Part shown: piece by piece, positions 41,889 through 62,232 of the stretch
Layout of the letters: each line of letters begins with the position of its first letter
Position numbering within the stretch: the stretch's first letter is position 1
NCBI RefSeq assembly: GCF_000577275.2
Contig: NZ_HG916852.1
Location: 2,669,001 to 2,733,000 of the forward strand
Length of the DNA stretch: 64,000 bases
From: Rhizobium favelukesii
GTDB lineage: Bacteria > Pseudomonadota > Alphaproteobacteria > Rhizobiales > Rhizobiaceae
Direction of reading: 5' to 3'
Notes under the pieces: generated by a model
Database searches by the model: none
Seen by the model: the letters and a program-made list of their open reading frames with translations, nothing else
What the model was told of the DNA's origin: nothing
Position numbers and translations under genes: made by a program

Positions 41889-42119
41889 CGTTCAACTTCC
41901 TCCCGGTTCTGACCACTTATGCAGCGTTATGTCTCGCGGCCAAATTCGTCAATCGCGACCACGTGCGCAGCGCGCCGGAACCGGTTCGCGCCCCAAATGT
42001 TTACGACCAAAGGAAAAATCACGGAGTTTTTATCTTTTGTTCAGCACGATTTCATAAATTCCACACTAGCGTCAAAATTCGCAGGTGTGTGTCGGCCAGT
42101 CACTAAAGGGTATGAAGAC

Positions 42120-43472
42120 GTGAATCGCTTTGTAATATCGGGATTATCCGCCGCCGCTGCCCTGCTCGCCATTGCTACCGCAGCGCCCTCTGCCGATGCG
42201 CAGCAGTTTTTCAACGGACGCCAGGGCGACGTCGTCTTCGTCGCGCCGAACGGCGATATCCTCGACTATGTCCCATCGGGCGCTGCCTACGCGCGCGACC
42301 GAAGGGGCAATCGCGTGCTGGTCGATCCCTATGGCAATGTGATCGCGACTGAAATGCGTGCCCGCGGCTACTACCCACGCCCACCGGTACGCGATGCCTA
42401 TAATAACGATGTTTATAACGGCGACGATCCCTACGGCGATGCTCGCTATTCCGAGCGCGGCGCCGTGACTGGCTCCATCCCACGCAACGCGCCGATCGAC
42501 CGCCAGCCGCTCAACGACCAACCCTACCCACAAAGCGACGACTATGCGTCTATCGAGCCTGACCAGCAAACGCCTGATGTGATGCAGCCGAAGCCCTCCC
42601 AAGAGCCGGTCATCACGCTGAAGAACAAGTCGAAGTCCGAGATCGTCGCCCTGCAGGTGTTTCTCGACCGCGCTGGTGTGTCGCCGGGCGCGATCGACGG
42701 CCACATGGGCGCAAACGTCACCAAGGCGATCTACGCCTACCAGCAGATGACGGGCGAGACGCTCGATCCGAACAACACCGACGCCATTCTCGAGCAGTTG
42801 CGCATGTCCGGCGGTCTGCCGCTCGTCGGCTACACCATTACGCCTGCCGACGCTGCCGGTCCGTACGTTGCGGAAATCCCGGAGGACTACGCGCATAAGG
42901 CTGCCCTGTCATCACTCGGCTACACCTCGACGACGGAAATGCTCGCGGAGCGTTTCCACATGGACGAAGGCTTCCTGAAGGAAATCAACCCGGGTGTGGA
43001 TTTCACGGTCCCCGGCACGATCGTAAAGGTCGTCAATCCCGGTGAAGTGAAGGCCGGTTCGGTCGCGCGCATCATTGCCGACAAGGGCCGCAAGCAGGTA
43101 TTTGCCTATGATAATGCCGGCAATCTGATTGCCGCCTATCCCGCCTCGATTGGCTCCACCGATACGCCCTCGCCCACCGGCACGGTGACCGTCGAGCGCG
43201 TCGCATTCAATCCGGGCTACACCTACAATCCGAAGATCAACTTCCAGCAGGGCGCCAACGACAGGATCCTGAACATTCCGCCGGGTCCGAACGGCCCGGT
43301 CGGTACGGTCTGGATGGCGCTTTCCAAGCCGACTTACGGCATCCACGGAACGCCAGAGCCATCGAAGATCGGCCGCACCCAGAGCCACGGCTGCATCCGC
43401 CTGACAAACTGGGATGCCACCGAACTGGCGAAGATGGTCAAGCCGGGCGTGACAGTCGAATTCGTCGACTGA
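42120..43472 (+). CDS. Exported L,D-transpeptidase (YkuD domain) with peptidoglycan-binding domain
   Basis: A 450-residue exported protein. The start is a GTG at 42120, giving a proper signal peptide (NRFVISGLSAAAALLAIATAA...ADA). Residues about 60-165 are a Tyr/Pro/Asp-rich linker (YYPRPPVRDAYNNDVYNGDD and onward). A PG_binding_1 domain follows near residues 175-230 (LQVFLDRAGVSPGAIDGHMG). The YkuD catalytic domain spans about 320-450, with HGTPEP and the nucleophile in SHGCIRLTNWDA. It forms 3-3 crosslinks or attaches proteins to peptidoglycan; rhizobia have many such enzymes. Confidence 0.92.
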   Translation: MNRFVISGLSAAAALLAIATAAPSADAQQFFNGRQGDVVFVAPNGDILDYVPSGAAYARDRRGNRVLVDPYGNVIATEMRARGYYPRPPVRDAYNNDVYNGDDPYGDARYSERGAVTGSIPRNAPIDRQPLNDQPYPQSDDYASIEPDQQTPDVMQPKPSQEPVITLKNKSKSEIVALQVFLDRAGVSPGAIDGHMGANVTKAIYAYQQMTGETLDPNNTDAILEQLRMSGGLPLVGYTITPADAAGPYVAEIPEDYAHKAALSSLGYTSTTEMLAERFHMDEGFLKEINPGVDFTVPGTIVKVVNPGEVKAGSVARIIADKGRKQVFAYDNAGNLIAAYPASIGSTDTPSPTGTVTVERVAFNPGYTYNPKINFQQGANDRILNIPPGPNGPVGTVWMALSKPTYGIHGTPEPSKIGRTQSHGCIRLTNWDATELAKMVKPGVTVEFVD

Positions 43473-43497
43473 TCCATCCTGCCTGTTCCCAAAAAAA

Positions 43498-43540
43498 TGC
43501 GCCTCAGAGGGCGACCTCAGAGGGCGCATTCTTTCTTTTG
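43498..43540. terminator. Bidirectional terminator between the L,D-transpeptidase and ParA-like genes
   Basis: ATGCGCC pairs with GGCGCAT, and TC/GA adds further pairing with a one-base bulge. The hairpin is followed by TCTTTCTTTT and preceded by seven A residues. The loop contains a 12-bp direct repeat (CCTCAGAGGGCG twice). Confidence 0.78.
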
Positions 43541-43550
43541 GTAGTTTCGT

Positions 43551-44264
43551 CTAGGCCGCTGAGCGGATCAGTGGACCGGTGCTGTGCGTTGGCTCAGCAA
43601 GCTTCACCGGCAGCTTGCCCATGATCTCTTCAGCAAAACAGCGAGCGTTCTCACGCGCCTTTTCGAGGTTGCTTACACGAGCCGGATCCAGCGAGTGCAG
43701 CGTGCCGCCACAGTCAAAAATATCGCGGAACGCCGAGCGTTCGATGATCGCGGTGTCGAGAACCGGGACCTGGCGCTCACTCAGCAACGACTTGACGAGA
43801 CAGAGTGCCCGCGTCGTCACCATCGAGTTCACGCGGGTCAGCACGACCGAGTGCCCGATACGAATGCCCGCCTTCTCATCCAGATATTGCAGCAGCTCGA
43901 GGACCTGCGCACCACCACGGGCGTCCATGGCGCATCCCTGGATCGGGATCAGCACGTGGTCGGAGAGCCCGATTGCCGTCGCAAGCAGCGGATTGCGCGC
44001 TCCCGGAAGGTCGATGATGAAGTAGTCTGTGTTGTGCTTGTTTTCGGCTATGTGCAGCGGCAAGGAAGCCGACGTGACGAAATCGATGACCGAGATATTC
44101 GTCACATGCCCGGAGACTTCATGCCATCGCGTGATCCAATGTTGTGGATCGGCGTCGAGGATCGTCACCCGATAGCCCTTCTGGGCAAGCTCGGTGGCGA
44201 GAAGAAGTACGGCTGTGGTCTTACCAGCGCCGCCCTTGGTGTTTGCGAAAGTGATGACTGGCAT
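43551..44264 (-). CDS. Orphan ParA/MinD-type ATPase
   Basis: A 237-residue ParA-family ATPase. The deviant Walker A is FANTKGGAGKTTAVLLLATEL near residues 6-24, with TILDADPQHWITRWHE as switch I (Walker A') and YFIIDLPGARNPL as Walker B. VLTRVNSMVTTRALCLVKSLL follows. No ParB or parS-like site is adjacent, so it is not a chromosome partition pair. Orphan ParA proteins position protein clusters, chemoreceptors, carboxysome-like bodies or poles. Nothing in the neighbourhood identifies the cargo. It is monocistronic, with terminators on both sides. Confidence 0.88.
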   Translation of the reverse strand: MPVITFANTKGGAGKTTAVLLLATELAQKGYRVTILDADPQHWITRWHEVSGHVTNISVIDFVTSASLPLHIAENKHNTDYFIIDLPGARNPLLATAIGLSDHVLIPIQGCAMDARGGAQVLELLQYLDEKAGIRIGHSVVLTRVNSMVTTRALCLVKSLLSERQVPVLDTAIIERSAFRDIFDCGGTLHSLDPARVSNLEKARENARCFAEEIMGKLPVKLAEPTHSTGPLIRSAA

Positions 44265-44491: not shown

Positions 44492-45643
44492 TCAGAAGCA
44501 ATCTTTAAAGAGCACCTTGGTATTTTCGAGCGTCATCTTGACTGGATTGCCGCCAGCGCTTGGATCTTCGATCGCCATCTCCGAAAGTTCGTCGATTCGA
44601 TCCGGCTTGATTCCCATCGCAGACAGGCTGTCCGGAACGCCGAGCTCCGAGCGAAGCTGCAGCACGTAGCTATAAAAGCCGTCGAAGCCGCCGGAGATGC
44701 CGAGATAGGCCGCGGCGCGCGCAATCTTCTCCTCAATCGCCGAACGATTGAAGCGCAACACCGCCGGCATCACGACAGCATTCGTCATGCCGTGATGCGT
44801 GTTGTAGACAGCCCCGATCGGATGCGACAGCGCATGGATGGCGCCGAGCCCCTTCTGGAATGCGACTGCGCCCATCGCAGCCGCCGACATCATGTTGACG
44901 CGGGCTTCGAGGTCTGTGCCTTCCTTGTAGGCGCGCGGCAGGAACTCCTTGACGAGCCGCATGCCCTCCAGCGCGATGCCGGCCGACATCGGGTGGTAAA
45001 AGGGCGAGGAATAGGCTTCCAGGCAGTGCGCGAAGGCATCCATGCCGGTGCCGGCAGTGATGATCTTCGGCATGCCGACCGTCAGTTCCGGATCGGCGAT
45101 GACGACGCCCGGCAGGAACTTTGGATGGAAGATGATCTTCTTCACATGCGTTTCGGAATTGGTGATGACGCTGGCGCGGCCGACTTCCGAACCGGTGCCG
45201 GCCGTCGTCGGGACGGCCACGATCGGAGCGATGCCTTCGACGCTCGCACGCGTCCACCAGTCGCCAATATCCTCGAAGTCCCAGACCGGCAGTGTCTGAC
45301 CGGCCATGAACGCGACGCACTTGCCGAGGTCAAGGCCCGAGCCTCCACCAAAGGCGACGACGCCGTCATGGCCACCGTCCTTGAACGCCTTGACGCCAGC
45401 GTCGAGGTTCTTGTCGTTCGGGTTTGGATCGACATCGGCAAAGATCGCCCGGCCGAGGCCGGCGTCTTCAAGAATGTCGAGCGCGGTCCTGGTGATCGCC
45501 ATCGAGGCCAGGCCGCGATCGGTGATCAGCAACGGCTTCTTCATCCCGAGGCTCTTGCAAGCGTCCGCCAGTTCCTTGATGCGGCCCCGGCCAAGCTTGA
45601 AAGCGGTCGGGTAGCTCCAGTTGGCTGTGATGTTGCTGCTCAT
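44492..45643 (-). CDS. Iron-containing (group III) alcohol dehydrogenase
   Basis: A 383-residue NAD(P)-dependent dehydrogenase. VAFGGGSGLDLGKCVA near residue 96 is the GGGS nucleotide-binding motif, and VPTTAGTGSEVGRAS follows. The metal site is the DAFAHCLEAYSSPFYHP and ALSHPIGAVYNTHHGMTNA pair, each with ligand His residues. The ATG overlaps the aldehyde dehydrogenase stop by 4 bases. Paired with an aldehyde dehydrogenase, it probably oxidises an alcohol to an aldehyde that the partner converts to an acid. It is the last gene of the five-gene operon. Confidence 0.92.
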   Translation of the reverse strand: MSSNITANWSYPTAFKLGRGRIKELADACKSLGMKKPLLITDRGLASMAITRTALDILEDAGLGRAIFADVDPNPNDKNLDAGVKAFKDGGHDGVVAFGGGSGLDLGKCVAFMAGQTLPVWDFEDIGDWWTRASVEGIAPIVAVPTTAGTGSEVGRASVITNSETHVKKIIFHPKFLPGVVIADPELTVGMPKIITAGTGMDAFAHCLEAYSSPFYHPMSAGIALEGMRLVKEFLPRAYKEGTDLEARVNMMSAAAMGAVAFQKGLGAIHALSHPIGAVYNTHHGMTNAVVMPAVLRFNRSAIEEKIARAAAYLGISGGFDGFYSYVLQLRSELGVPDSLSAMGIKPDRIDELSEMAIEDPSAGGNPVKMTLENTKVLFKDCF

Positions 45644-47025
45644 GCTGTGACTTTCTTCAGATGGAAGGATTTCGGACGCGTCAGGTTGTGGAAGCCGATG
45701 ATCGACAGCGAGCCACCTCGGCCGGTTTCCTTGACGCCGGTCCAGCACAGAGCCGGATCGAGATAGTCGGCGCGGTTCATGAAGACGGTGCCGGTCTCGA
45801 TCTCGCGGCCGAGCCGCCCTGCCCGCTCAGGATCCTTCGTCCAGAGCGAAGCCGTCAGGCCGTACTGGCTGTCGTTCATCAGGGCAACGGCTTCGTCGTC
45901 GCTCTTCACCTTCATGATGCCGACGGCAGGACCAAAGGTCTCCTCGCGCATGAAGGCCATCGAATGATCGACATTGACGAGGATCTGCGGTGCCAGATAG
46001 GCGCCGCCGTCGTCGGCCGAAAAAAGCTTCGGATCGACCAGTGCCTTGGCGCCCTTGGAAACGGCATCGGCGATCTGCTCGCGCACGACCCTGGCGAAGC
46101 GCTTGTTGGCCATCGGGCCAAGCGAGGTTTCAGGATCGAGCGGATTGCCGAGCTTGTAGTTCGAGACCCAGGCGACCGACTTCTCGACAAAGCTGTCATA
46201 GAGCGATTCATGCACATAGATACGCTCGATGCCGCAACAGCACTGGCCGGAATTGTAAGTCGCGCCGTCCATCAGCGTGTCGACGGCCGCGTCGAGGTCG
46301 GCATCGTCCATGACATAGCCCGGATCCTTGCCGCCGAGCTCAAGCCCGAGCCCTGTGAATGTTCCGGCCGCCGCCCGCTCCATCGAGCGGCCGCCTTCGA
46401 CCGAACCGGTGAAGTTGACGAAGTTGAAGCTGCCCGCAGCAATCAGCGCCGAGGTCGTTTCGTGATCAAGGAACACGTTCTGGAACACGTCCTCAGGAAC
46501 GCCGGCCTCGACGAAAGCCTGCACCAGCCGCTCTCCAACCAGCAGCGTCTGTGACGCATGCTTGAGGACGACCGTGTTGCCCGCCATCAGCGCCGGCGCG
46601 ATGGTGTTGATCGCCGTCATGTAGGGGTAGTTCCATGGCGCCACCACGAATACGACGCCATGCGCCTCGCGCTCGATGCGGCGCTCGAACTTGTCGCTCT
46701 CCTCGACAACCAAAGGCGCGAGCGCATCGGCGGCGATCGAAGCGACATAGTTGGAGCGCTCGTTGAAGCCCTTGTACTCGCCGCCGTAGCGGATCGGGCG
46801 GCCCATCTGCCAGGCAAGCTCGGGCACGACCACGTCGGACATTTCATTGAGCCGTGCGACACCCTTCAGCACCAGCTGAACGCGCTCCTCCAACGGCCGC
46901 TTCGCCCATGCCTTCTGCGCCTTGCGCGCACGCCCCACGGCCTCCTTCGCCGCCTCCAGCGAAAGCGCCGGACGCTCGGCGTAAACCGATCCGTCGACCG
47001 GTGAAATGCATTGGATCATTCCCAT
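45640..47025 (-). CDS. Aldehyde dehydrogenase (NAD(P)+)
   Basis: About 461 residues of the ALDH superfamily. APWNYPYMTAINTIAPALMAGNTV is the cofactor loop, VNFTGSVEGGRSM the NAD-binding turn, and LELGGKDPGYV carries the general-base Glu. NSGQCCCGIERIYV has the catalytic Cys. AFMREETFGPAVGIMK is the C-terminal family motif. The start is uncertain: ATGs at 47034, 47025 and 47019 are in frame; AGGA lies 8 bases before the one at 47025. It is translationally coupled to the alcohol dehydrogenase downstream and lies 104 bases after the glutamine synthetase-like gene. Confidence 0.92.
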   Translation of the reverse strand: MGMIQCISPVDGSVYAERPALSLEAAKEAVGRARKAQKAWAKRPLEERVQLVLKGVARLNEMSDVVVPELAWQMGRPIRYGGEYKGFNERSNYVASIAADALAPLVVEESDKFERRIEREAHGVVFVVAPWNYPYMTAINTIAPALMAGNTVVLKHASQTLLVGERLVQAFVEAGVPEDVFQNVFLDHETTSALIAAGSFNFVNFTGSVEGGRSMERAAAGTFTGLGLELGGKDPGYVMDDADLDAAVDTLMDGATYNSGQCCCGIERIYVHESLYDSFVEKSVAWVSNYKLGNPLDPETSLGPMANKRFARVVREQIADAVSKGAKALVDPKLFSADDGGAYLAPQILVNVDHSMAFMREETFGPAVGIMKVKSDDEAVALMNDSQYGLTASLWTKDPERAGRLGREIETGTVFMNRADYLDPALCWTGVKETGRGGSLSIIGFHNLTRPKSFHLKKVTA

Positions 47026-47129
47026 GATCTTCATCCTATGTTTTCACGTGCCGAAACCGGCAAACCCCAACAATCTCCTCAGGTATGGAGATCATACGAC
47101 AGGGCGCCGTGCGGCCTTGGCTACGCCTA

Positions 47130-48497
47130 TTATGCTCTTTCGAAACCGCGCGCCACTTCCCAGTCGGTGATGCGACGATCGTATTCTTCCTGCTCCCACT
47201 CGGCAGCACGGGTGTAGTGGTCGACGACATCATCGCCGAAAGCATTGCGCAGCATCTTCGATTCCGTCATGGCGACTGTTGCCGCGCGCAGCGTACGCGG
47301 GATCTCGCGGACGCTGCGAGCTCCATAGGCGTCGCCGACGAACGGCGCCTCGAGCACCATCTTCTTCTCTATGCCATCGATGCCGGCGGCAAGCAGCGCG
47401 GCAAAGGCGAGATAGGGATTGAGGTCGGAGCCGCCGACACGGCACTCGATGCGGATCGCTTTGGTGTCGTCGCCGCAGAGGCGATAGCCGGCGGTGCGGT
47501 TGTCCTTGCTCCAGATTGCCTTCGTCGGCGCAAAGGTGCCCGCCATGAAGCGCTTGTACGAGTTGATGTAAGGTGCGAGGAAGTAGGTGATCTCGCTCGC
47601 GTGGGCGAGAAGACCGGCCACGTAGTTGTTCATCAGCGGCGACATGCCGTACTTGCCACCCTCATCGTAGAAGAGCGGCGTCTTGCCGTCAGCGCTCCAC
47701 AGCGACTGATGAATATGCGACGAACTGCCGGCGGCATTGTAGTGCCACTTCGCCAGGAAGGTGATTGCCTTGCCCTTTGACCAGGCGATTTCCTTGCAGC
47801 CGTTCTTGATAATCGAGTGGCGATCGGCCATCGTCAGCGCCTCGGCATAGCGGACGTTGATTTCTTCCTGGCCCGCGGACGCCTCGCCCTTGGAATTTTC
47901 GACCGGAATGCCGGCGCCGTGAAGGCCGGTGCGGATTGCCCGCATGACCTCTTCTTCCTTGGTCGTCTGGAAGATGTGGTAGTCCTCGTTGTAGGCGCTG
48001 GCGAGCTTCAGATTGCGATAGCCGGACGCGTGCGCGGACTCATAGGTCTGGTCGAACAGGAAGAATTCGAGCTCCGAGGCCATGAACGCCTTCATGCCCA
48101 TGTCTTCCAACCGCTTGACCTGTTTCTTCAGGATCGCGCGCGGTGAGTGCGACACCTCTTCATGCGTGTGGTGGTCGAGGAGATCGCAGAGCACGAGCGC
48201 CGTGCCTTCGAGCCACGGAATACGGCGCAGCGTCGAAAGATCAGGCTTCATCGTGTAGTCGCCATAGCCCTTTTCCCAGCTCGTCGCCTTGTAGCCGGAG
48301 ACGGTTTCCATCTCCATGTCGGTGGCAACGAGATAGTTGCAGCTATGCGTTTCCTTCCATGCGCTTTCGAGGAAGTATTCAGCCTGAAAGCGCTTGCCCA
48401 TCAAGCGGCCCTGCATGTCCACCTGGCACGCCAGAACCGTGTCGATGCGCCCGTCGGCAACATCCTGCTTGAGATCGTCGAGGGTATAGATGCTCAT
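47130..48497 (-). CDS. Glutamine synthetase-like gamma-glutamyl ligase (PuuA/GlnA-like class)
   Basis: A 455-residue protein of the glutamine synthetase fold. ASELEFFLFDQ is the first metal-binding Glu box, KWHYNAAGSSSHIHQSLW holds the conserved His/Glu region, and IRIECRVGGSDLNPYLAFAALLAAG follows. The C-terminal APFVGDAYGARSVREIPRTLRAA matches gamma-glutamylamine ligases such as PuuA, and the NLY adenylylation site of true GlnA is absent. It likely ligates glutamate to an amine rather than ammonia. The start chosen is ATG 48497 (MSIYTLDDL). It is the middle gene of the operon with a permease upstream and two dehydrogenases downstream. Confidence 0.9.
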   Translation of the reverse strand: MSIYTLDDLKQDVADGRIDTVLACQVDMQGRLMGKRFQAEYFLESAWKETHSCNYLVATDMEMETVSGYKATSWEKGYGDYTMKPDLSTLRRIPWLEGTALVLCDLLDHHTHEEVSHSPRAILKKQVKRLEDMGMKAFMASELEFFLFDQTYESAHASGYRNLKLASAYNEDYHIFQTTKEEEVMRAIRTGLHGAGIPVENSKGEASAGQEEINVRYAEALTMADRHSIIKNGCKEIAWSKGKAITFLAKWHYNAAGSSSHIHQSLWSADGKTPLFYDEGGKYGMSPLMNNYVAGLLAHASEITYFLAPYINSYKRFMAGTFAPTKAIWSKDNRTAGYRLCGDDTKAIRIECRVGGSDLNPYLAFAALLAAGIDGIEKKMVLEAPFVGDAYGARSVREIPRTLRAATVAMTESKMLRNAFGDDVVDHYTRAAEWEQEEYDRRITDWEVARGFERA

Positions 48498-48594
48498 ATT
48501 GAATCCGCCTGACCTTGAACTGAAATCGGGGCACCGAAAGAGCATAGAGTGAAGCGGGCCTGCCGCCTTTGATGCCTTTTCGTTGATCCGGGAA

Positions 48595-48618
48595 GCGGGG
48601 CCGCCATCGCGGCCCCGC
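48595..48618 (-). promoter_or_regulatory. Strong intercistronic hairpin between permease and glutamyl-ligase genes
   Basis: GCGGGGCCGC pairs perfectly with GCGGCCCCGC over 10 bases around CATC, with no T-run on either side. It sits between the permease stop and the ligase start on the minus strand. It could stabilise or modulate the operon mRNA. Confidence 0.6.
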
Positions 48619-48641
48619 CGTTGGAGAGGGAAGCCGAAACC

Positions 48642-50189
48642 TCAGGCTTCGCCGACGGCCTTTTCGGCAGCCGCGATCTCCACCTGACGGCGCGCAACCT
48701 CGTCGCCGATCGGCGGGCCTTTGAAGCGGCGGCTTTCGAAGCCGAACCAGACGATGCCGGTAAGGACCAGGAAGCCGACGGTGATGTAAAGCGCCCACTG
48801 GTTCGGCGGCTGGATCCCGAGGACGAAGATCAGCATCATCGCAAGGATCGACAGGACCGCGAACAGCTTGAATATGCCTTCGCCGAGGTTCCATGGACCC
48901 ATCTTGTCCCACTTCGACGTTCCCCACGCGAAGAGACCGAGGGTGATCGGGATCGCGAAGGAGAAGAACAGGAAGATGACCGTGCACGAGACGACGATCG
49001 TGTAAACGGGCGTCTCGCCGATCGAAACAAGCGACGAGCCCCAGACGAACAGTACGGAGAGGATCGAACCCGTCCAGATGGCGGCAACCGGCGTGCGGTG
49101 CTGCGGGCTGACCTTGGCGAGAGCCTTGGATGCCGGCAGACCGCCGTCACGCGAGAAGGCGAAGATCATGCGGGAGACCGAGGTCACCGTCGCCAGACCG
49201 CACAGCCACTGGCTGACGAAGATGGCGAGATAGAGCAGATCCTTGACGGCAGGGTTTACCTGGCTGTCCATGGCCCAGAAGAAGACGTTCCAGCCCTGCT
49301 TGGCCGCGTCGTCCATGTTCGGGAGCATCAGCACGAATGCGCAAAGCATGATGTAGCCGAAGAGAGCCGACCAAAGAACGGAGGCAACCATGCCACGCGG
49401 AACGGAGTGGGCGGCCTTCACCGTTTCCTCCGAGGTATGCGCCGAAGCGTCATAGCCGGTGATCGTATAGATCGGCAGCAGCAGACCAAGTAGGAATACC
49501 CAGGCACCCGAAGTCGACGGCCATACGTTGCCACCCGCTTCGCCGGAATAGTTCGCGAAGGTGAACAGGCGGGCAATGTCGTAGGACGGCGCCGCCAGCA
49601 AGCAAACTGCAGCCAGGGCAATTGCCGTTGCGAAGATCAGGTAGCCCGAAAAATCGGTGAGCTTCGCCGTCAGCCCGATCCCCATGTGGTTCACGAGCGC
49701 CTGCGCGCCGGTGATAACAACCAGGAACAGGATACGCACGACAGTGGTATCAGTCAGGCCGAAGTAGCTCGTTCCAAACGATCCCATGAAGAAGTAGTAG
49801 GTGCCGACGTTGATCGCGCCGAGCACCGTAACGAGGCCGAGGAGGTTGAACCAGGCGGTTAACCAGCCGGTGAAGCGGTTGCCGAGGATCGAACCCCAGT
49901 GGTAGAGACCGCCCGCGGTCGGATAGGCCGAGCTGATCTGCGCCATCGCCACAGCGAACACCAGCGAAACGAAGCAACCGAGCGGCCAGCCGATGCCGAT
50001 GGCCGCACCGCCGGCGCCCGCCGTCGCTTGCGCCAGCGAGTTGATGCCGCCGGAAAGGATGCAGATGATAGAGAATGAGACCGCAAAGTTCGAGAACGAG
50101 CTCATTCGCCGTTCCAGCTCCTGGGCATAGCCCATGGAATGCAGGACATGCATATCCTGTTTCTTGTCGTGATCCGTGTAGTCGGACAT
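48642..50189 (-). CDS. APC-superfamily amino acid/amine permease
   Basis: A 515-residue polytopic membrane protein with about 12 hydrophobic segments. SSFSNFAVSFSIICILSGGI and AQISSAYPTAGGLYHWGSILG match the N-terminal APC family box, and GYDASAHTSEETVKAAHSVPRG is the characteristic loop of the amino acid/GABA/choline-type branch. SRMIFAFSRDGGLP is the later loop. It should import an amino acid or amine by H+ or Na+ symport. The next gene encodes the glutamyl ligase, so the imported amine may be the ligase substrate. The start ATG is 50189, and the SD is GGGGGAAG. Confidence 0.92.
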   Translation of the reverse strand: MSDYTDHDKKQDMHVLHSMGYAQELERRMSSFSNFAVSFSIICILSGGINSLAQATAGAGGAAIGIGWPLGCFVSLVFAVAMAQISSAYPTAGGLYHWGSILGNRFTGWLTAWFNLLGLVTVLGAINVGTYYFFMGSFGTSYFGLTDTTVVRILFLVVITGAQALVNHMGIGLTAKLTDFSGYLIFATAIALAAVCLLAAPSYDIARLFTFANYSGEAGGNVWPSTSGAWVFLLGLLLPIYTITGYDASAHTSEETVKAAHSVPRGMVASVLWSALFGYIMLCAFVLMLPNMDDAAKQGWNVFFWAMDSQVNPAVKDLLYLAIFVSQWLCGLATVTSVSRMIFAFSRDGGLPASKALAKVSPQHRTPVAAIWTGSILSVLFVWGSSLVSIGETPVYTIVVSCTVIFLFFSFAIPITLGLFAWGTSKWDKMGPWNLGEGIFKLFAVLSILAMMLIFVLGIQPPNQWALYITVGFLVLTGIVWFGFESRRFKGPPIGDEVARRQVEIAAAEKAVGEA

Positions 50190-50314
50190 GACTTCCCCCT
50201 GTTTAGCGATCAGCCGCGGGATTGCGGGTGATCATCCAGTGCCAAAGTGCCCGTGACGTTTTCGCCTACGGGCGGACCGCAGTTAGACTGCTCCCCGGGG
50301 TCTTTTCTTCGTTG

Positions 50315-51088
50315 TCAGGCGTCCAGGCTTTGCTGGAGAAGCCCCGTCAGATAGTCGGCCATGACCCCTTGACCGTCTTCGTCTGAGATGAGGTCGTTGC
50401 GGACCTCGATCATTACATTGCGGAACCCGTTGGACAGCCCATGCAAGATCAGCGTGTGGGTCACGCCATCCGCAGGGCCATAGGGCTCGTTGCGTTCGAT
50501 TTTGTAGAGAGGCGAGCCGGTCGATGCGGCGTTCAAAACGCTGTCGGCAAAGCGGCTGTCTTCGTCGTGCAGTATGCCAATTTCCACGGCGCGCGTCCTG
50601 TCGTGGTACACCGGAGTGAAGCTGTGGACCGTCGCAATCACCGTCTCCTGCCCCCTCGCCTTGCGATCGCGAATCAGTGCGCGAATGGCGTCGTGGAAAG
50701 GAATATACAATGCTTCGGCGCGCGCGAGGCGTTCTTCCGCGCTGAGATCGGCATTGCCGGGAATCTCGTAGATTTCGCTTCTCGCGGGCATCGCCCCCGG
50801 AGACTCCGGCGGCCTGTTGCAATCGTAGATCAATCGCGAAAATCGCTGGTAAATGAGCGTGGCATCGAGCGCTTCGGAAATCCCGCGGGCAACTGCCAAT
50901 GCGCCAGGATCCCATGCGATATGACTTTCCAGGGCCTCAGCGGAGAGACCGAGTGTGCCGTACCGCTCCGGCAGCAATCGGGATGCATGCTCGCAGATCA
51001 CCAGCAACGGGCTCTTGCCGTCCGGCCGCTCGACCGAAACGCATTCGCCTTCCGCTTCGCTTAGAACCTTGAAATGAGCAGGCACCAC
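50315..51088 (-). CDS. N-formylglutamate amidohydrolase-like protein
   Basis: A 257-residue protein of the N-formylglutamate amidohydrolase/DUF (FGase) family. LLVICEHASRLLPERYGTLGL near the N-terminus has the metal-binding Glu-His pair, YDCNRPPESP follows, and FTPVYHDRTRAVEIGILHDED matches the family. There is no hut gene nearby, so histidine degradation is unlikely. Its first position in an operon with a glutamyl ligase suggests it hydrolyses a gamma-glutamyl amide. The start is one of two adjacent GTG codons (51088, 51085); the exact start is unclear. Confidence 0.85.
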   Translation of the reverse strand: MVPAHFKVLSEAEGECVSVERPDGKSPLLVICEHASRLLPERYGTLGLSAEALESHIAWDPGALAVARGISEALDATLIYQRFSRLIYDCNRPPESPGAMPARSEIYEIPGNADLSAEERLARAEALYIPFHDAIRALIRDRKARGQETVIATVHSFTPVYHDRTRAVEIGILHDEDSRFADSVLNAASTGSPLYKIERNEPYGPADGVTHTLILHGLSNGFRNVMIEVRNDLISDEDGQGVMADYLTGLLQQSLDA

Positions 51089-51163
51089 AGCCGCATCCCG
51101 AGCATTAATAAAGAATGTATAAGAAAAGAATTCTTCAGGTTTCGGCGACTGTCAAGCGCACTC

Positions 51164-51194
51164 TGAAAATTTCTTTTCATGACAGCAGTTGACA
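51164..51194. promoter_or_regulatory. Candidate RpiR operator and -35 box in the divergent promoter
   Basis: TGAAAA and TTTTCA form an exact inverted repeat around TTTC (51164-51179). A perfect TTGACA -35 box on the plus strand follows at 51189-51194, and a weak -10 candidate lies 17 bases further. The site is in the only promoter-bearing gap between the divergent rpiR-type gene and the operon, so it could control both. Confidence 0.5.
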
Positions 51195-51263
51195 TGGATT
51201 ATGACAGCGTTGTTAACTTTCAGTGGGAAAGTGGCACAAGACCAATCCCGGGGAGCAAGTCGC

Positions 51264-52136
51264 GTGACCGCTGCGTCGAAGACAGTTTCGGACGTAATCC
51301 ATTCGCATTTTGGCACGCTCACGCGGGCTGAAAAGCAATTGGCTGAAAGCCTGTTGGACAACTACCCTGTCTCCGGACTGGGGAGCATAACGACGATTGC
51401 GGAAAACGCAGGCGTATCGACGCCGACGGTCGTACGCATGGTTCAGAAGCTGGGCTTCAAAGGCTATCCCGACTTCCAGGCGCACCTCCATCAAGAGGTG
51501 GAAGCGACGATTTCAAACCCCATCGCCAAGCATGACCGATGGGCCTCCAACGCGCCGGGCACGCACATTCTGAACCGGTTTGCCGACGCAATCATGGGCA
51601 ACCTGCGCCAGACACTGAGCGCTCTCGACACGGCGACCTTCAACGACGTCGCCTCGCTGTTGTCCGATCGTAAGCGCGGCCTTTACTTTGTCGGCGGGCG
51701 CATCACCGGCGCCCTGGCCGAGTACTTTTTCACGCATATGCAGGTCATTCGCCCGAACACCGCGCTGTTGTCGTCGAATTCGAGCAGCTGGCCGCAATAT
51801 GTTCTCAATATGAATCCCGGCGACCTCCTGGTGATTTTCGATATCCGCCGCTACGAGCAGGAAATGGTTAGCCTTGCGACCGCTGCCCGCAAGAGCGGCG
51901 CCGAGATTGTCGTCTTCACCGATCAATGGGTCTCGCCGGCCGCCAAGCTCGCGCGTCATACCTTTCGCGTGCAGATCGAGGCGCCGTCGGCCTGGGACTC
52001 TTCCGTCGTCACTCTCTTCATCGTCGAAGCGCTGATCGAGGCCGTCCAGAGCTCGACGTGGGACGAGACGAAAGAACGCATGAAAACCTTGGAGGGTCTG
52101 TTCGAACAAACCAGGCTCTTCCGCAAACTCGGCTAG
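51264..52136 (+). CDS. RpiR/MurR-family transcriptional regulator
   Basis: A 290-residue regulator. Residues about 10-85 form the RpiR winged helix (LTRAEKQLAESLLDNYPVSG, then TIAENAGVSTPTVVRMVQKLGFKGYPDFQ). Residues about 120-260 form a SIS domain (GLYFVGGRITGALAEYFF), which normally senses a phosphosugar or related metabolite. I chose the GTG at 51264, because GGGGAG lies 8 bases upstream; the longer frame begins with a TTG inside the -35 box. It is divergent from the amine operon and 180 bases before the ABC importer, so it may regulate either. Confidence 0.88.
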   Translation: MTAASKTVSDVIHSHFGTLTRAEKQLAESLLDNYPVSGLGSITTIAENAGVSTPTVVRMVQKLGFKGYPDFQAHLHQEVEATISNPIAKHDRWASNAPGTHILNRFADAIMGNLRQTLSALDTATFNDVASLLSDRKRGLYFVGGRITGALAEYFFTHMQVIRPNTALLSSNSSSWPQYVLNMNPGDLLVIFDIRRYEQEMVSLATAARKSGAEIVVFTDQWVSPAAKLARHTFRVQIEAPSAWDSSVVTLFIVEALIEAVQSSTWDETKERMKTLEGLFEQTRLFRKLG

Positions 52137-52316: not shown

Positions 52317-53420
52317 GTGATCTCTAATATCTCGAAAATGCTTTCGCTTTCTACTGCTATTGTTGTTGCTTCGACGGCAATTGCAGCTGCCGAACCAAGC
52401 GCTGAACTTATCGCCGCTGCCAAGAAGGAAGGCACGCTGACGACGATCGCGCTTCCACACGACTGGTGCGGCTACGGCGACGTCATTGCCGGTTTCAAGG
52501 CCAAGTACGGCCTCGAAGTCAACGAACTGAACCCGGATGCAGGTTCGGGCGACGAAATCGAAGCCATCAAGGCCAACAAGGGCAACAGCGGCCCGCAGGC
52601 GCCCGACGTGATCGACGTTGGTCTCTCCTTCGGTCCGTCGGCAAAGGCCGAAGGCCTGATCCAGCCCTACAAGGTTTCGACCTGGGATTCCATTCCTGAC
52701 AGCGCCAAGGATGCCGATGGCTTCTGGTACGGCGATTACTACGGCGTTCTCTCCTTCGTCGTGAACACCGATATCGTCAAGGAAGTTCCGAAGGACTGGG
52801 CCGACCTGAAGAAGTCGGACTACGCCAACAGCATCGCTCTCGCTGGCGACCCGCGCGCTTCCAACCAGGCTGTTCAGGCTGTCTACGCTGCCGGCGTCGC
52901 TGCTGGTGAAAAGGATGCGACCAAGGCTGGTGAAGCCGGTCTCGCTTACTTTGCCGAACTCAACAAGGCCGGCAATCTCGTTCCTGTCATCGGCAAGTCC
53001 GCCTCGCTCGCTCAGGGCTCGACCCCGATCGTCGTCGCTTGGGACTACAACGGCTTGTCCTGGCGCGATACGCTGAAGGGCAACCCGCCGGCTGACGTCG
53101 TCGTTCCGGCATCGGGCGTTGTCGCTGGCGTTTACGTCCAGGCGATCTCCGCCTTTGCTCCGCATCCGAACGCTGCCAAGCTCTGGATGGAATACCTCTA
53201 TTCGGACGAAGGTCAGCTTGGCTGGCTGAAGGGCTATTGCCACCCGATCCGCTTCAACGATCTGGCGAAGAACAAGAAGGTCCCGCAGGCACTTCTCGAC
53301 AAGCTGCCGCCGGCCGCTGCGTATGAAAAGGCCGTATTCCCGACCCTCGACGAGCAGGCTGCTGGCAAGACCGCCATCACCACCAAGTGGGACAGCGTCG
53401 TCGGCGCCAACGTCAAGTAA
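52317..53420 (+). CDS. ABC transporter substrate-binding protein (type 2 PBP, family 1-like)
   Basis: A 367-residue periplasmic binding protein with a signal peptide (SKMLSLSTAIVVASTAIAAA, about residues 5-24). LIAAAKKEGTLTTIALPHDWCGYGDV and GSGDEIEAIKANKG fit the iron/thiamine/polyamine-type extracellular solute-binding family. VDVGLSFGPSAKAEGLI is the ligand-loop region, and GVVAGVYVQAISAFAPHPNAAKLWMEYL matches the late family motif. The start is a GTG with AAGGAG 7 bases upstream. The ligand is not obvious: polyamine, phosphonate or another small amine are possible. The hairpin after it fits higher expression than the permeases. Confidence 0.88.
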   Translation: MISNISKMLSLSTAIVVASTAIAAAEPSAELIAAAKKEGTLTTIALPHDWCGYGDVIAGFKAKYGLEVNELNPDAGSGDEIEAIKANKGNSGPQAPDVIDVGLSFGPSAKAEGLIQPYKVSTWDSIPDSAKDADGFWYGDYYGVLSFVVNTDIVKEVPKDWADLKKSDYANSIALAGDPRASNQAVQAVYAAGVAAGEKDATKAGEAGLAYFAELNKAGNLVPVIGKSASLAQGSTPIVVAWDYNGLSWRDTLKGNPPADVVVPASGVVAGVYVQAISAFAPHPNAAKLWMEYLYSDEGQLGWLKGYCHPIRFNDLAKNKKVPQALLDKLPPAAAYEKAVFPTLDEQAAGKTAITTKWDSVVGANVK

Positions 53421-53433
53421 TCTCTGACGCAGG

Positions 53434-53460
53434 ACCTCTCCGCCCGCGTGGCGGAGAGGT
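53434..53460 (+). terminator. Hairpin after the binding-protein gene
   Basis: ACCTCTCCGCC pairs with GGCGGAGAGGT over 11 bases around CGCGT, followed by TTCGTTCTTC. It is probably a partial terminator or mRNA stabiliser separating the abundant binding protein from the permease genes. Confidence 0.75.
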
Positions 53461-53494
53461 TTCGTTCTTCATTGCCCCGATAAGGCTGTCGTCT

Positions 53495-54388
53495 ATGACC
53501 ACTGTTTCAACATCCGCGGCCCCGGCCACGCCCATGATAAACCGCGACAGGATCGTAGACTGGCTCGGCATCGCGCCGTTCATGATCTTCGCTGCGATGT
53601 TCCTTATCATACCGACGCTTTATCTGGTCGCAGGTGCATTTCTGACGCCGGAAGGCGACCTGACCCTCAAGAACATTGCCGACCTGTTCACGCCGTCGAT
53701 TCTCAGCGCCTACTGGATCAGTATCAAGGTGTCCGTGGCATCTGCCCTCGGTGGCGCACTGATCGGCTTCTTCCTCGCCTGGGCAGTCGTGCTCGGCGGC
53801 CTGCCGAACTGGATTCGTTCGGGCCTGCTGACCTTCTCCGGTGTTGCCTCCAATTTCGCAGGCGTACCGCTTGCCTTCGCCTTCCTCGCCACCCTCGGAC
53901 GCACCGGCCTCGTGACCGTTTTGATGCGCGACTGGTTTGGCTTCAATCTCTATTCCACCGGTTTCAACCTGCTGAGCTTCTTCGGGCTCACCATCACCTA
54001 CATGTACTTCCAGATCCCGCTGATGGTCCTGATCCTGACGCCGGCGCTCGACGGCATGAAGAAGGAGTGGAAGGAAGCCGCGCTGATCCTCGGCGCCACC
54101 AATGGCCAGTATTGGCGCATGGTCGCCTTCCCGATCCTCTGGCCCAGCCTGATGGGCACGACGCTGCTCCTCTTTGCGAACGCCTTCGGCGCCATTGCCA
54201 CTGCCTACGCGCTGACCGGCAGCTCCCTCAACATCGTGCCGATCCTGCTCTATGCGCAGATCCGCGGCGACGTGCTTCACAACGCCAACCTCGGCTACGC
54301 GCTGGCGCTTGGTATGATCGTCATCACCGGCCTGTCCAACCTTGTTTACATCCTGCTGCGCATGCGCGCTGAACGGTGGCAAAAATGA
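53495..54388 (+). CDS. ABC transporter permease (first)
   Basis: A 297-residue inner-membrane permease of the BPD type with six hydrophobic segments. EWKEAALILGATNGQYWRMVAFPILWPSLM contains the EAA loop (EAA...G) that contacts the ATPase. The start is the ATG at 53495 (MTTVSTSA), 74 bases past the binding-protein stop. Its stop overlaps the next permease start (ATGA). It should work as a heterodimer with the 54385-55173 product. Confidence 0.88.
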   Translation: MTTVSTSAAPATPMINRDRIVDWLGIAPFMIFAAMFLIIPTLYLVAGAFLTPEGDLTLKNIADLFTPSILSAYWISIKVSVASALGGALIGFFLAWAVVLGGLPNWIRSGLLTFSGVASNFAGVPLAFAFLATLGRTGLVTVLMRDWFGFNLYSTGFNLLSFFGLTITYMYFQIPLMVLILTPALDGMKKEWKEAALILGATNGQYWRMVAFPILWPSLMGTTLLLFANAFGAIATAYALTGSSLNIVPILLYAQIRGDVLHNANLGYALALGMIVITGLSNLVYILLRMRAERWQK

Positions 54389-55173
54389 AGACATCACGCC
54401 TTGGAGCCTGGATATCCATCGCATTCGGCGCGATCTACTTCGTCCTGCCGCTCATCGCCACAATCGAATTTTCGCTGCGTATGCGCCGTGGCGCCTACAG
54501 TTTTGATGCCTACGCCTCGGTTTTTTCCGAAGCGCAGTTCCGCGAGACCTTCGGTTATTCGATGCTGATGGCGCTGCTGACGATCGTCTTCGGTATGCTG
54601 CTTGTTGTGCCGACAGCCTATTGGGTGCGCCTGCGCTTGCCGCAGATCCGCCCGATCGTCGAGTTCATCACGCTGCTGCCGCTCGTCATCCCGGCAATCG
54701 TGATCGTCTTCGGCTACCTCAGAATGTACAACTCATCGTCGATCCTGCCGCTGACGGGCTCGACGACGGGCACGAACATCCTGCTGGTCCTCTCCTACAT
54801 GACGCTCTCGCTGCCATACATGTACCGCGCCGTCGACACCGCCATGCGGGCAATCGACGTCCGCACCCTGACGGAAGCGGCCGAAAGCCTCGGCGCAAGC
54901 TGGACGACGATCTTGTTCAAGTGCATTTTCCCGAACGTCATGAGCGGCGTGCTTTCCGGCGCCTTCATCACGCTTGCGATCGTTATGGGCGAATTCACCA
55001 TGGCCGCGCTGCTCAACCGTCCGGCCTTTGGCCCCTACCTGCAGCTGGTGGGCGCCAACCGCGCCTACGAGCCGTCGGCACTGGCCGTCATTGCCTTCTC
55101 GATCACCTGGCTCAGCATGGGCCTGCTGCAACTCGTCTCCCGCTTCCACAAAGCCGCCCCGGCTAAGTCGTAA
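54385..55173 (+). CDS. ABC transporter permease (second)
   Basis: A 262-residue permease of the same transporter, with six hydrophobic segments and the EAA loop TLTEAAESLGASWTTILFKCIFPNV. The start ATG at 54385 overlaps the stop of the first permease (ATGA); a GTG at 54376 is in frame but less likely. The ATPase gene starts 14 bases after its stop. Confidence 0.88.
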   Translation: MKTSRLGAWISIAFGAIYFVLPLIATIEFSLRMRRGAYSFDAYASVFSEAQFRETFGYSMLMALLTIVFGMLLVVPTAYWVRLRLPQIRPIVEFITLLPLVIPAIVIVFGYLRMYNSSSILPLTGSTTGTNILLVLSYMTLSLPYMYRAVDTAMRAIDVRTLTEAAESLGASWTTILFKCIFPNVMSGVLSGAFITLAIVMGEFTMAALLNRPAFGPYLQLVGANRAYEPSALAVIAFSITWLSMGLLQLVSRFHKAAPAKS

Positions 55174-55186
55174 GGTATCTGGTTTC

Positions 55187-56248
55187 ATGGCTTTTCTCGA
55201 ACTCGCAAACCTCAAGAAATCCTTCGGCAACACGCAGGTCGTGCATGACTTCAACATGCAGATAGAGAAGGGTGAATTCATTTCCTTCCTTGGCCCCTCA
55301 GGCTGCGGCAAGACGACCGTCCTGCGCATGATCGCCGGCTTCGAAACGCCTTCCGCCGGTCGCATCGCCATCGGCGGCAAGGAGCAGAACAGCCTGAAGC
55401 CCAACAAGCGCAATATCGGCATGGTTTTTCAGGCTTATGCGCTGTTTCCCAACATGACCGTTCACGACAACGTCGCCTTTGGCCTGAAGGTCGCCGGTGC
55501 GCAGCCGACGGAGATCGATCAGCGCGTCAAGGAAATGCTCGCGCTGATCAAGCTCGACCATCTTGCCGACCGCTATCCCTATCAGCTCTCCGGCGGCCAG
55601 CAGCAGCGCGTGGCGCTTGCCCGTGCGCTTGCAGTACGCCCGCAGGTACTGCTGCTCGATGAGCCGCTGTCTGCCCTCGACGCCAAAATCCGCGTGTCGC
55701 TGCGCGAGGAAATCCGCGCGATCCAGCAGACGCTCGGTATCACCACCGTCTTCGTGACGCACGACCAGGAAGAAGCCCTTTCAATCTCCGACCGCATCGT
55801 CGTGATGAACGCCGGCCGCGCCGATCAGATCGGCACGCCGTTCGAAATCTACAACACCCCGGCGACCCGCTTCGTCGCCTCCTTCGTCGGCACACTCAAC
55901 ATGATCGAAGCGAAGGTCGTCGATCCCGCTGCCAACCGTATCCAGATCGGCGACCAGGGCGTGACGCTGAAGCAATCGGTTGCCGCCTTCAAAGCGGGCG
56001 ATACTGTCTCGCTGGCGCTGCGTCCGGAAGCCGGATCGCTGACCGAAGGCACGCCAAGCGACACGAAACTGACGGGGCAGGTCGTATCGGCCCACTTCCT
56101 TGGCTCGGTCATCCGCACGCGTATGAACGTCGGCGGCAACGTCATTTCATTCGACATGTTCAACAGCCCCGGCGTGACCCCGCCGGCCGCCGGCGAGACC
56201 GTCACGCTCCGCTTCATGGCGGCTGACCTTCTCGTCATCCGCGACTGA
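55187..56248 (+). CDS. ABC transporter ATP-binding protein, PotA/FbpC-like
   Basis: A 353-residue ATPase. Walker A is GPSGCGKTTVLRMIAG, the signature LSGGQQQRVALARAL, and Walker B LLLDEPLSALDA, followed by the H-loop VTHDQEEAL. The C-terminal about 110 residues form a TOBE-type domain (ALRPEAGSLTEG and following), as in the polyamine and iron importers. The start ATG at 55187 (MAFLELANL) is supported by the family N-terminus. It completes the importer of the region. Confidence 0.9.
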   Translation: MAFLELANLKKSFGNTQVVHDFNMQIEKGEFISFLGPSGCGKTTVLRMIAGFETPSAGRIAIGGKEQNSLKPNKRNIGMVFQAYALFPNMTVHDNVAFGLKVAGAQPTEIDQRVKEMLALIKLDHLADRYPYQLSGGQQQRVALARALAVRPQVLLLDEPLSALDAKIRVSLREEIRAIQQTLGITTVFVTHDQEEALSISDRIVVMNAGRADQIGTPFEIYNTPATRFVASFVGTLNMIEAKVVDPAANRIQIGDQGVTLKQSVAAFKAGDTVSLALRPEAGSLTEGTPSDTKLTGQVVSAHFLGSVIRTRMNVGGNVISFDMFNSPGVTPPAAGETVTLRFMAADLLVIRD

Positions 56249-58153: not shown

Positions 58154-59155
58154 CTAGCGGATTGCCTGGTCATCTGCATCGAAGCGATGCATGTGGCCCG
58201 TATCCGGCGTCGCATAGACGATGTCATCCGGCTCGTACTTGTGCTCGCCGAAAAGGCGCGCAGTGATAAGGCCACACTGCTCGGATTCCAGATAGATGAT
58301 GGTATCCGCCCCAAGATGCTCGACGTGGACGACTTTCGCCCGCCAAGTGCCCTGCTCGCGCGAAAGGGCCAGATGCTCCGGGCGGACGCCGACGGTCTTT
58401 GCGCCGGCATCGGCGACCTTGTCGCCCGGAATGAAGTTCATCATCGGCGAACCGATGAAGCCCGCGACGAAGACGTTTGCGGGGCGGTTGTAGAGCTCCA
58501 TCGGTGAGCCGACTTGCTCGATCGCACCGGCATTCAACACCACGATCTTGTCGGCAAGCGTCATCGCCTCGACCTGGTCGTGGGTGACGTAGATCATCGT
58601 TGCCTTGAGGCTGCGGTGAAGGCGCGCGATCTCGAGACGAGTCTGAACACGAAGCGCAGCATCGAGGTTTGACAGTGGCTCGTCGAAGAGAAAGAGCGCC
58701 GGCTCGCGCACGATCGCACGGCCAATAGCGACGCGCTGGCGCTGACCACCGGAAAGCTCTGCCGGGCGCCGCGCGAGGTAGGGTTCCAGCGACAGCATCG
58801 AGGATGCCTTGCTCACCCGCTTGTCGATCTCGTCCTTTTGCGTGCCGGCCTGCTTGAGGCCGAGGCCCATGTTGTCCTTGACCGTCAGGTGCGGATAGAG
58901 CGCGTAGGACTGGAACACCATCGCGATGCCGCGCTTGGCGGGAGGCGTCAGCGTCTCATCCTTGCCGTTGATGAGAACGGCGCCCGAGGTGACATCCTCC
59001 AACCCCGCAATGCTGCGCAGAAGCGTCGATTTCCCGCAGCCCGAAGGCCCGACGAAAATGACGAACTCGCCGTCCTTGACCTCCAGGTCTATACCCTTCA
59101 GCACCTCGTGGATGCCGTAGGTCTTGCGGATGGATTTGAGTTGAAGCGATCCCAC
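58154..59155 (-). CDS. Carbohydrate ABC transporter ATP-binding protein, UgpC/MalK type
   Basis: A 333-residue ATPase. Walker A is [16 protein letters not shown], the signature [15 protein letters not shown], Walker [14 protein letters not shown] and the H-loop [14 protein letters not shown]. The C-terminal TOBE domain holds the [14 protein letters not shown] motif. [18 protein letters not shown] is the MalK-type linker to it. It is the last gene of the sugar operon, after the dehydrogenase and the permeases. Confidence 0.92.
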
Positions 59156-59167
59156 TAGTCGTATTCC

Positions 59168-60250: not shown

Positions 60251-61089
60251 TTGACCGCTCCCGAGGTAATGCCGCGGATCAACTGCCGCGAGAAGATGAC
60301 ATAGAGGACGAGGATCGGCAGGATCGCCAGCGACAACGCGGCAAGCACGGCGTTCCAATTGGTCACGAACTGCCCGATGAAGATCTGCGAGCCGAGAGTA
60401 ACGGTCTTCGTTGCTTCGGATGGCGCCAGGATCAGCGGGAACCAGAGATCGTTCCATATCGGGATCATCGTGAAGACGGCAACCGTCGCCATGGCCGGGC
60501 GCACCAACGGCAGCACCAGCCGGAAGAAGATCGAATACTCCGAGAGCCCGTCGATGCGACCGGCGTTCTTCAGGTCATCGGAAACCGTGCGCATGAACTC
60601 CGACAGGATGAAGATCGCAAGCGGAATGCCCTGAGCCGTATAGACGAGGATCAGCGCTGTCAGCGTGTTGACGAGGCCCGCTGCCACCATCCCCTGCAGG
60701 ATGGCGACCGTGCCGAGGCGAATCGGGATCATGATGCCGATCGCCATGTAGAGACCGGTCAGCGTGTTGCCCTTGAACTTGTACTCCGAGAGCGCAAAGG
60801 CGGCCATCGCGCCGAACAACAGCACGAAGAAGATCGAAACGACCGTGACGATGAAGCTGTTCTGGAAATAGGCGGCGAAGTCCCCCTGCCCCAGCACGGT
60901 CTGATAGCCGACAAGGCTGAAGGTCGAGGGTGTCGGGACCTGCATTGGCGAACGGAAGATCGCGTTGCGGTCCTTGAACGAGTTGATGATCGTCAAAAAC
61001 ACCGGGAAAATGGCAACCAACGTATAGCCGATCAGTGCCAGGTGAACGAGGCCGGTGCGGATGGGGGATGTGCGTGCTCTGTTGGACAT
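60247..61089 (-). CDS. Carbohydrate ABC transporter permease, MalG type
   Basis: A 280-residue permease with six hydrophobic segments. DDLKNAGRIDGLSEYSIFFRLVLPLVRPAMATVAVF includes the EAA-like loop (NAGRIDG). The ATG at 61089 has GAGGAG 7 bases upstream. It overlaps the dehydrogenase start. Confidence 0.9.
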   Translation of the reverse strand: MSNRARTSPIRTGLVHLALIGYTLVAIFPVFLTIINSFKDRNAIFRSPMQVPTPSTFSLVGYQTVLGQGDFAAYFQNSFIVTVVSIFFVLLFGAMAAFALSEYKFKGNTLTGLYMAIGIMIPIRLGTVAILQGMVAAGLVNTLTALILVYTAQGIPLAIFILSEFMRTVSDDLKNAGRIDGLSEYSIFFRLVLPLVRPAMATVAVFTMIPIWNDLWFPLILAPSEATKTVTLGSQIFIGQFVTNWNAVLAALSLAILPILVLYVIFSRQLIRGITSGAVK

Positions 61090-61099
61090 GACACACTCC

Positions 61100-62047: not shown

Positions 62048-62128
62048 GGCTTTTGCCTGTTCTTCTTGGCTGCACCGGTGGTGCAGCGCGTCTGACACAG
62101 CGGGCAGAACGCCCTTCCCACCAATCGT

Positions 62129-62224: not shown

Positions 62225-62232
62225 ACCTTTCA

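Follow-up and report, generated by a model that had tools for sequence, protein, structure and literature searches.

A putative gamma-glutamylation-type ethanolamine utilization operon in Rhizobium favelukesii and its candidate importers

Examination of a 64,000-nucleotide stretch of the Rhizobium favelukesii genome (NCBI RefSeq assembly GCF_000577275.2, contig NZ_HG916852.1, positions 2,669,001 to 2,733,000 of the forward strand; hereafter, the window) revealed six open reading frames (ORFs) at positions 44492-52136, corresponding to five minus-strand genes and a divergent gene encoding an RpiR-family regulator. Moving away from the regulator, the five genes encode an FGase-family hydrolase, an APC-family permease, a glutamine synthetase (GS)-like ligase, an aldehyde dehydrogenase (ALDH) and an iron-containing alcohol dehydrogenase (ADH). 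Family scans agreed with every label given to these ORFs in a preliminary description prepared from the DNA alone. Although all six genes were correctly in place in that description, the range considered ended before an adjacent four-gene ABC importer (52317-56248), which had been overlooked. Based on sequence comparisons, the operon most probably encodes an ethanolamine utilization pathway of the gamma-glutamylation type.

Gene content and conservation of the cluster

Pfam scanning revealed that the operon contains PF00120, PF00465, PF00171 and PF05013, namely, the complete set listed in Table 2 of PMC9397018. At the same time, the window presents a divergent RpiR gene and the gene order FGase-transporter-GS-ALDH-ADH, an order that is identical in the annotated Marinovum plasmid pMaD4 and that is also found in further alphaproteobacterial genomes. 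When loci from relatives were considered (the best 80 of at least 593), 70 were seen to contain RpiR-FGase-APC-GS-ALDH-ADH and the four-gene ABC transporter beyond RpiR, all in a single order, while seven others contained everything but a match to the APC permease of the window. As such, the gene order is not due to chance. Each of the three loci presenting fewer genes (L055, L059 and L066) ends at a contig end. Among these best 80, the named organism whose ligase locus is closest is Rhizobium tibeticum (L007), with 100% ligase identity.

A wider scan addressed 32 loci, comprising three plasmid loci (including L123, from R. leguminosarum) and 29 class-wide stretches from other families, the latter taken from 31 matching class genomes after leaving out the source genome (G000) and G193. 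A complete RpiR-FGase-TRAP-GS arrangement was found in eight, the version with Eat in one and the APC version of the window in L123; in the remaining loci, the ligase occurs in partial or different contexts, as judged by the reference proteins used. Finally, 110 of 151 Rhizobiaceae genomes encode the ligase (at E 1e-150), with the whole operon having been checked in only some of these.

In terms of gene starts, the mechanically defined ADH ORF (from 45748) is over-long. Inspection of the codons revealed an ATG at 45643 that forms a four-base ATGA overlap with the ALDH stop, and an identical overlap is present in the annotated R. leguminosarum ADH homologue, making this ATG the likely start. 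The annotated RpiR homologue is shorter (290 aa), such that the true RpiR start is probably downstream of the TTG at 51189.

Between the FGase and RpiR genes, a palindrome, TTGAC and a second palindrome were detected in 75 of 79 aligned sequences (78 loci and the window), with L060, L074, L077 and L081 being the exceptions. In 200 rounds of letter-shuffling, which preserves letter counts only, the arrangement appeared in 0 of 79 sequences; the expressions describing the palindromes were composed with the alignment already in view, and the sequences come from relatives. The whole window contains two palindromes of this type, i.e., those considered here. In nine loci outside the family, TTGAC is always present, with both palindromes flanking it at similar spacing in two (L126 and L132) and not in the other seven by these expressions. 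Given this conservation, the two palindromes flanking the FGase promoter probably serve as RpiR operators, at which RpiR would act as a repressor that is relieved by a pathway compound. A scan of the source genome for the operator (up to three mismatches) yielded 118 matches, as compared to 58 for the reversed control, and is accordingly too loose to name a regulon. The presence of the same operator ahead of the ABC importer genes was considered and rejected, with no palindrome being found in the gap between the RpiR gene and that encoding the ABC substrate-binding protein (SBP).

Table 1. Genes and candidate promoter elements of the operon and of the adjacent ABC importer (positions in the window).
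Feature	Position	Strand	Basis
ADH (iron-containing), proposed gamma-glutamylethanolamide dehydrogenase	44492..45643	-	PF00465/PF25137; nearest NCBIfam family 4-hydroxybutyrate dehydrogenase, below cut-off
ALDH, proposed gamma-glutamyl-aminoacetaldehyde dehydrogenase	45640..47034	-	PF00171; none of the best 25 of 44 NCBIfam families at cut-off
GS-like ligase, proposed gamma-glutamylethanolamide synthetase	47130..48545	-	PF00120
APC-family permease, proposed ethanolamine importer	48642..50189	-	PF13520
FGase-family hydrolase, proposed gamma-glutamylglycine amidohydrolase	50315..51088	-	PF05013
RpiR-family regulator, divergent	51189..52136	+	PF01418 (HTH_6) and PF01380 (SIS)
Candidate RpiR operator 2, TGAAGAATTCTTTTCT on the minus strand	51122..51137		Alignment of 78 loci and the window
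TTGACA, likely -35 box of the FGase-to-ADH operon	51150..51155	-	Conserved between both palindromes
Candidate RpiR operator 1, TGAAAAGAAATTTTCA on the minus strand	51164..51179		Alignment of 78 loci and the window
ABC importer SBP (SBP_bac_6, PhnS-like)	52317..53420	+	PF13343
ABC importer permease A (mechanical ORF; ATG at 53495 the likelier start)	53387..54388	+	NCBIfam scan, synteny, codons
ABC importer permease B	54376..55173	+	PF00528, synteny
ABC importer ATPase, PhnT2-like	55181..56248	+	425.5 bits (cut-off 457.7)

As for the surroundings of the cluster, a ParA-like gene and a gene encoding an L,D-transpeptidase (41919-44264) flank the operon, being found in 62 and 74 of the 80 loci, respectively. 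Reading of the ORFs on the minus strand at 58154-63747 pointed to a second, sugar-type ABC transporter set and an oxidoreductase-like gene. In two other loci, L206 (6760-7628) and L212 (6449-7409), the ligase and ALDH genes are separated by a short insert of two genes, with the product of the second presumably resembling a PIN-type toxin.

Enzymes of the proposed pathway

In the proposed pathway, ethanolamine would enter the cell through the APC permease, the adjacent ABC importer or both, and would then be joined to glutamate by the GS-like ligase in an ATP-dependent manner. The ADH would next convert the hydroxyl group to an aldehyde, which the ALDH would convert to gamma-glutamylglycine, with the FGase-like hydrolase finally releasing glycine and regenerating glutamate.

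The ligase falls below the NCBIfam cut-offs of GlnA, GS III and PuuA. In the PDB, the best matches of the ligase are 11zs (676.8 bits) and 5dm3 (646.3 bits), the latter of which we take to be the ligase of Chromohalobacter salexigens, with the next best match scoring 177 bits. Considering residues numbered as in E. coli GlnA and the roles assigned to them in excerpts of PMC6529630, 6/6 metal, 2/2 ATP and 4/5 glutamate residues of those checked are conserved, with the one altered glutamate residue (N264, replaced by A272) also being altered in E. coli PuuA. By contrast, the ammonia-site residues D50, Y179 and E327 are replaced by C69 (tentatively), D188 and F338. In GlnA4, according to the same excerpts, F331 replaces E327, and V189 or D186 replaces Y179. 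The ammonia-site substitutions in the two proteins are alike.

The preliminary description had favored an amino-alcohol route via gamma-glutamylation over a PuuA-type route, a view that the present analysis supports. Indeed, participation of the operon in a PuuA-type polyamine route or in a side branch of histidine (Hut) degradation is extremely unlikely. While the ligase does score 195.9 bits on the gamma-glutamylputrescine synthetase (PuuA) model NF045547 and the hydrolase does contain an FGase domain, the cut-off of the former model is 650 bits, ruling out the ligase being PuuA, and the E. coli puu region examined encodes the oxidase PuuB and the hydrolase PuuD but no alcohol dehydrogenase. 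Likewise, the hydrolase scores only 18.6 bits against the HutG model TIGR02017 (cut-off, 278.75), and a separate HutG gene found elsewhere in the source genome scores 394.9 bits, together ruling out the hydrolase being the HutG N-formylglutamate deformylase.

The nearest PDB sequence of the hydrolase is 2odf (Atu2144; 334 bits). The source genome encodes five FGase-family proteins (G000:C59 and C62), corresponding to the operon copy, a single HutG and three others whose scores lie far under the HutG cut-off. In the preliminary description, having the last step performed by an enzyme of the FGase type was considered to be new. This is not the case, since a PF05013-family enzyme has already been named gamma-glutamylglycine amidohydrolase in both C. 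salexigens and S. coelicolor (PMC9397018, Table 2; PMC6529630, Discussion). In Phaeobacter, moreover, a phosphoethanolamine-induced operon includes a gamma-glutamylglycine amidohydrolase (PMC10132767, Table 2 and legend to Fig. 5).

Importers and the EutB route

In the seven loci with no match to the APC permease of the window, the gap between the FGase and ligase genes contains TRAP transporter genes in four (L060, L067, L070 and L084; classed by the receptor protein, NF037995), an Eat-like permease gene in two (L072 and L075) and a gene encoding another APC permease in one (L071). The L070 receptor, the sole such protein compared with the PDB, scores 540 bits with 4uab, a structure that we take to be the ethanolamine receptor Csal_0678 with ethanolamine; the next hit scores 77 bits. 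The two Eat-slot proteins score 364.9 (L072) and 373.8 (L075) bits on the ethanolamine permease model TIGR00908, just missing the cut-off of 381.75. Csal_0678 binds ethanolamine, according to excerpts of PMC10132767. Relative to the window, the six TRAP and Eat loci retain 82-88% identity in the ligase, ALDH and ADH. With L071 also set aside, the remaining 73 loci span 78-100%, a range that includes these values, such that these enzymes hardly change upon exchange of the transporter.

It is conceivable, albeit unlikely, that the APC permease imports another amino alcohol (1-amino-2-propanol, 3-aminopropanol, etc.) which then undergoes the same chemistry. The best NCBIfam match of the permease is TIGR00907 (199 bits; cut-off, 598), with TIGR00908 not being among its three families at E 0.001. 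Replacement in the slot could alter the substrate as well, and where TRAP or Eat takes the slot, the hydrolase (60-64% identity to that of the window) and the regulator (67-77%) are more divergent than are the other enzymes. Still, the identity retained by the latter and the appearance in the same slot of two independently recognized types of ethanolamine transporter argue against such a change of substrate.

Across the 151 Rhizobiaceae genomes, the APC permease was found in 25, the TRAP receptor in 73 and Eat in 15. Within 400 bp of the ligase gene (110 genomes), an EtoX-type TRAP receptor was encoded in 61, the APC permease in 22, Eat in eight and none of the three in 19, with two kinds never being found together. 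The APC permease and ligase genes adjoin in 22/22 genomes containing both, whereas Eat is not adjacent to the ligase in 1/9. When ten of the 19 genomes with an empty slot were opened, the ABC SBP gene was seen directly downstream of that encoding the ADH and on the same strand in five (L203-L206 and L209), TRAP genes were situated slightly farther off in L212, and no importer matching the reference proteins was detected in L207, L208, L210 or L211. In the source genome, neither a TRAP receptor nor Eat was found elsewhere at E 1e-90.

The distribution of EutB, found in 26 of the 151 genomes, was also considered. Both the ligase and EutB are encoded in six genomes, the ligase only in 104, EutB only in 20 and neither in 21, reflecting anti-correlation (p 5e-9; here and below, Fisher tests on related genomes that ignore phylogeny). 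In two of the six double genomes (G359 and G433), EutB is represented by a divergent version alone (about 475 bits). Eat is encoded within 3 kb of EutB in four genomes, every one of them ligase-negative, and a TRAP receptor is encoded within 20 kb of EutB in none. All three ligase-negative genomes with the APC permease also encode EutB (p 0.11, not significant). At the site flanked by the ParA-like and L,D-transpeptidase genes in the EutB-positive genomes G395 and G297 (L161 and L167), the ABC importer is accompanied by only APC and ADH, or by only Eat, an arrangement suggesting that the ligase route was lost while an importer was kept. No EutB that could provide a second ethanolamine route was found in the source genome at E 0.001. 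The preliminary description had offered ethanolamine as a substrate, and the comparative evidence, namely, the transporter slot and the anti-correlation with EutB, makes ethanolamine the likely one.

Several observations weigh against this assignment. Exclusion between ligase and EutB is not strict, given that the ligase is also encoded in six of the 26 genomes with EutB, and the p-values serve as guides only, as the genomes are not phylogenetically independent. No operon protein reaches an NCBIfam equivalog cut-off among the matches listed, and the assignment of C69 is uncertain, as the alignment column of D50 is gapped. As for the slot, comparison of the APC permease with the PDB yielded no match at E 0.001, the homologues of this permease carry generic names (among the 120 of 6309 listed), and it is not encoded within 20 kb of EutB in any of the 151 genomes. 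Furthermore, the TRAP receptor is not adjacent to the ligase in 11/72 genomes containing both.

Turning to the ABC importer, its SBP scores 64.4 and 67.3 bits on the PhnS models TIGR03227 and NF011620, respectively, as compared to cut-offs of 395.3 and 310. The predicted fold of the SBP best matches 5t1p (a Campylobacter SBP, putative by title), followed by 2-aminoethylphosphonate (AEP)-, polyamine-, citrate- and sugar-binding proteins, such that the ligand cannot be read from the fold. A paralogue sharing 56% identity is encoded in the source genome (G000:C62:854034-855101). The SBP is found in 85 of the 151 genomes. Either route, i.e., ligase or EutB, is encoded in 83/85 genomes with the SBP and in 47/66 without (p 4e-6).

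Quite possibly, the ABC importer is an unrelated neighbor of RpiR, such as a phosphonate transporter. Several of its best models are of AEP transporters, none at cut-off, and in one ligase-negative genome (L168), the importer lies next to genes for a DUF1045 protein and an amidohydrolase, a pair that strikes us as reminiscent of phosphonate genes. In several ligase-negative genomes, moreover, the importer has no reference ethanolamine genes nearby, and the co-presence of SBP and ligase is not significant (both, 67; SBP only, 18; ligase only, 43; neither, 23; p 0.07); the gap ahead of the SBP gene, as noted above, contains no operator palindrome. On the other hand, of the 67 genomes that encode both SBP and ligase, 62 have the two genes no more than 10 kb apart, with the SBP gene being co-directional and downstream of the ADH in 32, divergent beyond RpiR, as in the window, in 27 and otherwise placed in three. 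In addition, the SBP follows EutB in the 41 ligase-negative genomes, with EutB being encoded in 16/18 genomes with the SBP and in 4/23 without (p 6e-6; genome size and kinship uncontrolled). We tentatively propose, as a reading of comparable standing, that Rhizobiaceae may have recruited two importers to ethanolamine catabolism, with a TIGR00907-like APC permease taking the place of TRAP EtoVWX or Eat, and with both the gamma-glutamyl and EutBC routes being accompanied by a PhnS-like ABC importer that would take up ethanolamine or a compound releasing it.

Comparison with known systems

The gamma-glutamylation pathway for ethanolamine, including the PF05013-mediated last step, is described in excerpts of PMC10132767, PMC6529630, PMC9397018 and PMC5812351. 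The C. salexigens pathway is referred to as predicted in silico in PMC6529630 (under a different reference number) and as proposed in PMC9397018, while PMC10132767 holds that in both A. tumefaciens C58 and C. salexigens, the genes have been demonstrated to work as a pathway for ethanolamine, again as judged from excerpts. A search of the literature returned, among the matches listed, nothing on this operon in Rhizobium nor on an APC or ABC importer associated with it. The pathway itself is known; the host is new and the set of importers differs. The present analysis places the published ethanolamine route in many Rhizobiaceae, given the presence of the ligase in 110 of the genomes sampled, where current annotations (e.g., in R. 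leguminosarum) read glutamine synthetase family, amino acid permease and N-formylglutamate amidohydrolase. It also puts forward substrates that can be tested for two transporters, together with a candidate RpiR operator.

Of the systems considered, E. coli Puu shares the logic of gamma-glutamylation, yet relies on the amine oxidase PuuB and the hydrolase PuuD and acts on putrescine. The EutBC ammonia-lyase route addresses the same substrate and shares the Eat permease with some of the relatives, but involves no glutamylation, with EutB not being encoded in the source genome. A similar route involving GlnA4 in Streptomyces, pointed to in the preliminary description, has indeed been reported in part. 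According to excerpts of PMC6529630, only the GlnA4 step was shown in vitro, and the S. coelicolor cluster (SCO1611-1615) is like the Rhizobium locus in its proposed steps, FGase-family last enzyme and ammonia-site substitutions, although the cluster figure presents a short-chain dehydrogenase and the regulator etuRI, unlike the Rhizobium set. The hydrolase is close in sequence to A. tumefaciens Atu2144 (2odf). C. salexigens shares PF00120, PF00465, PF00171 and PF05013 with the Rhizobium locus (PMC9397018, table) but uses the TRAP receptor Csal_0678, where the Rhizobium locus has an APC permease in the slot. Finally, in Phaeobacter sp. MED193 (MED193_10021-10056; excerpts of PMC10132767), RpiR, gamma-glutamylglycine amidohydrolase, transporter, ethanolamine gamma-glutamylase, ALDH and ADH are all present in the same locus-tag order, with import relying on TRAP EtoVWX, whereas the Rhizobium locus contains an APC permease and a linked ABC importer.

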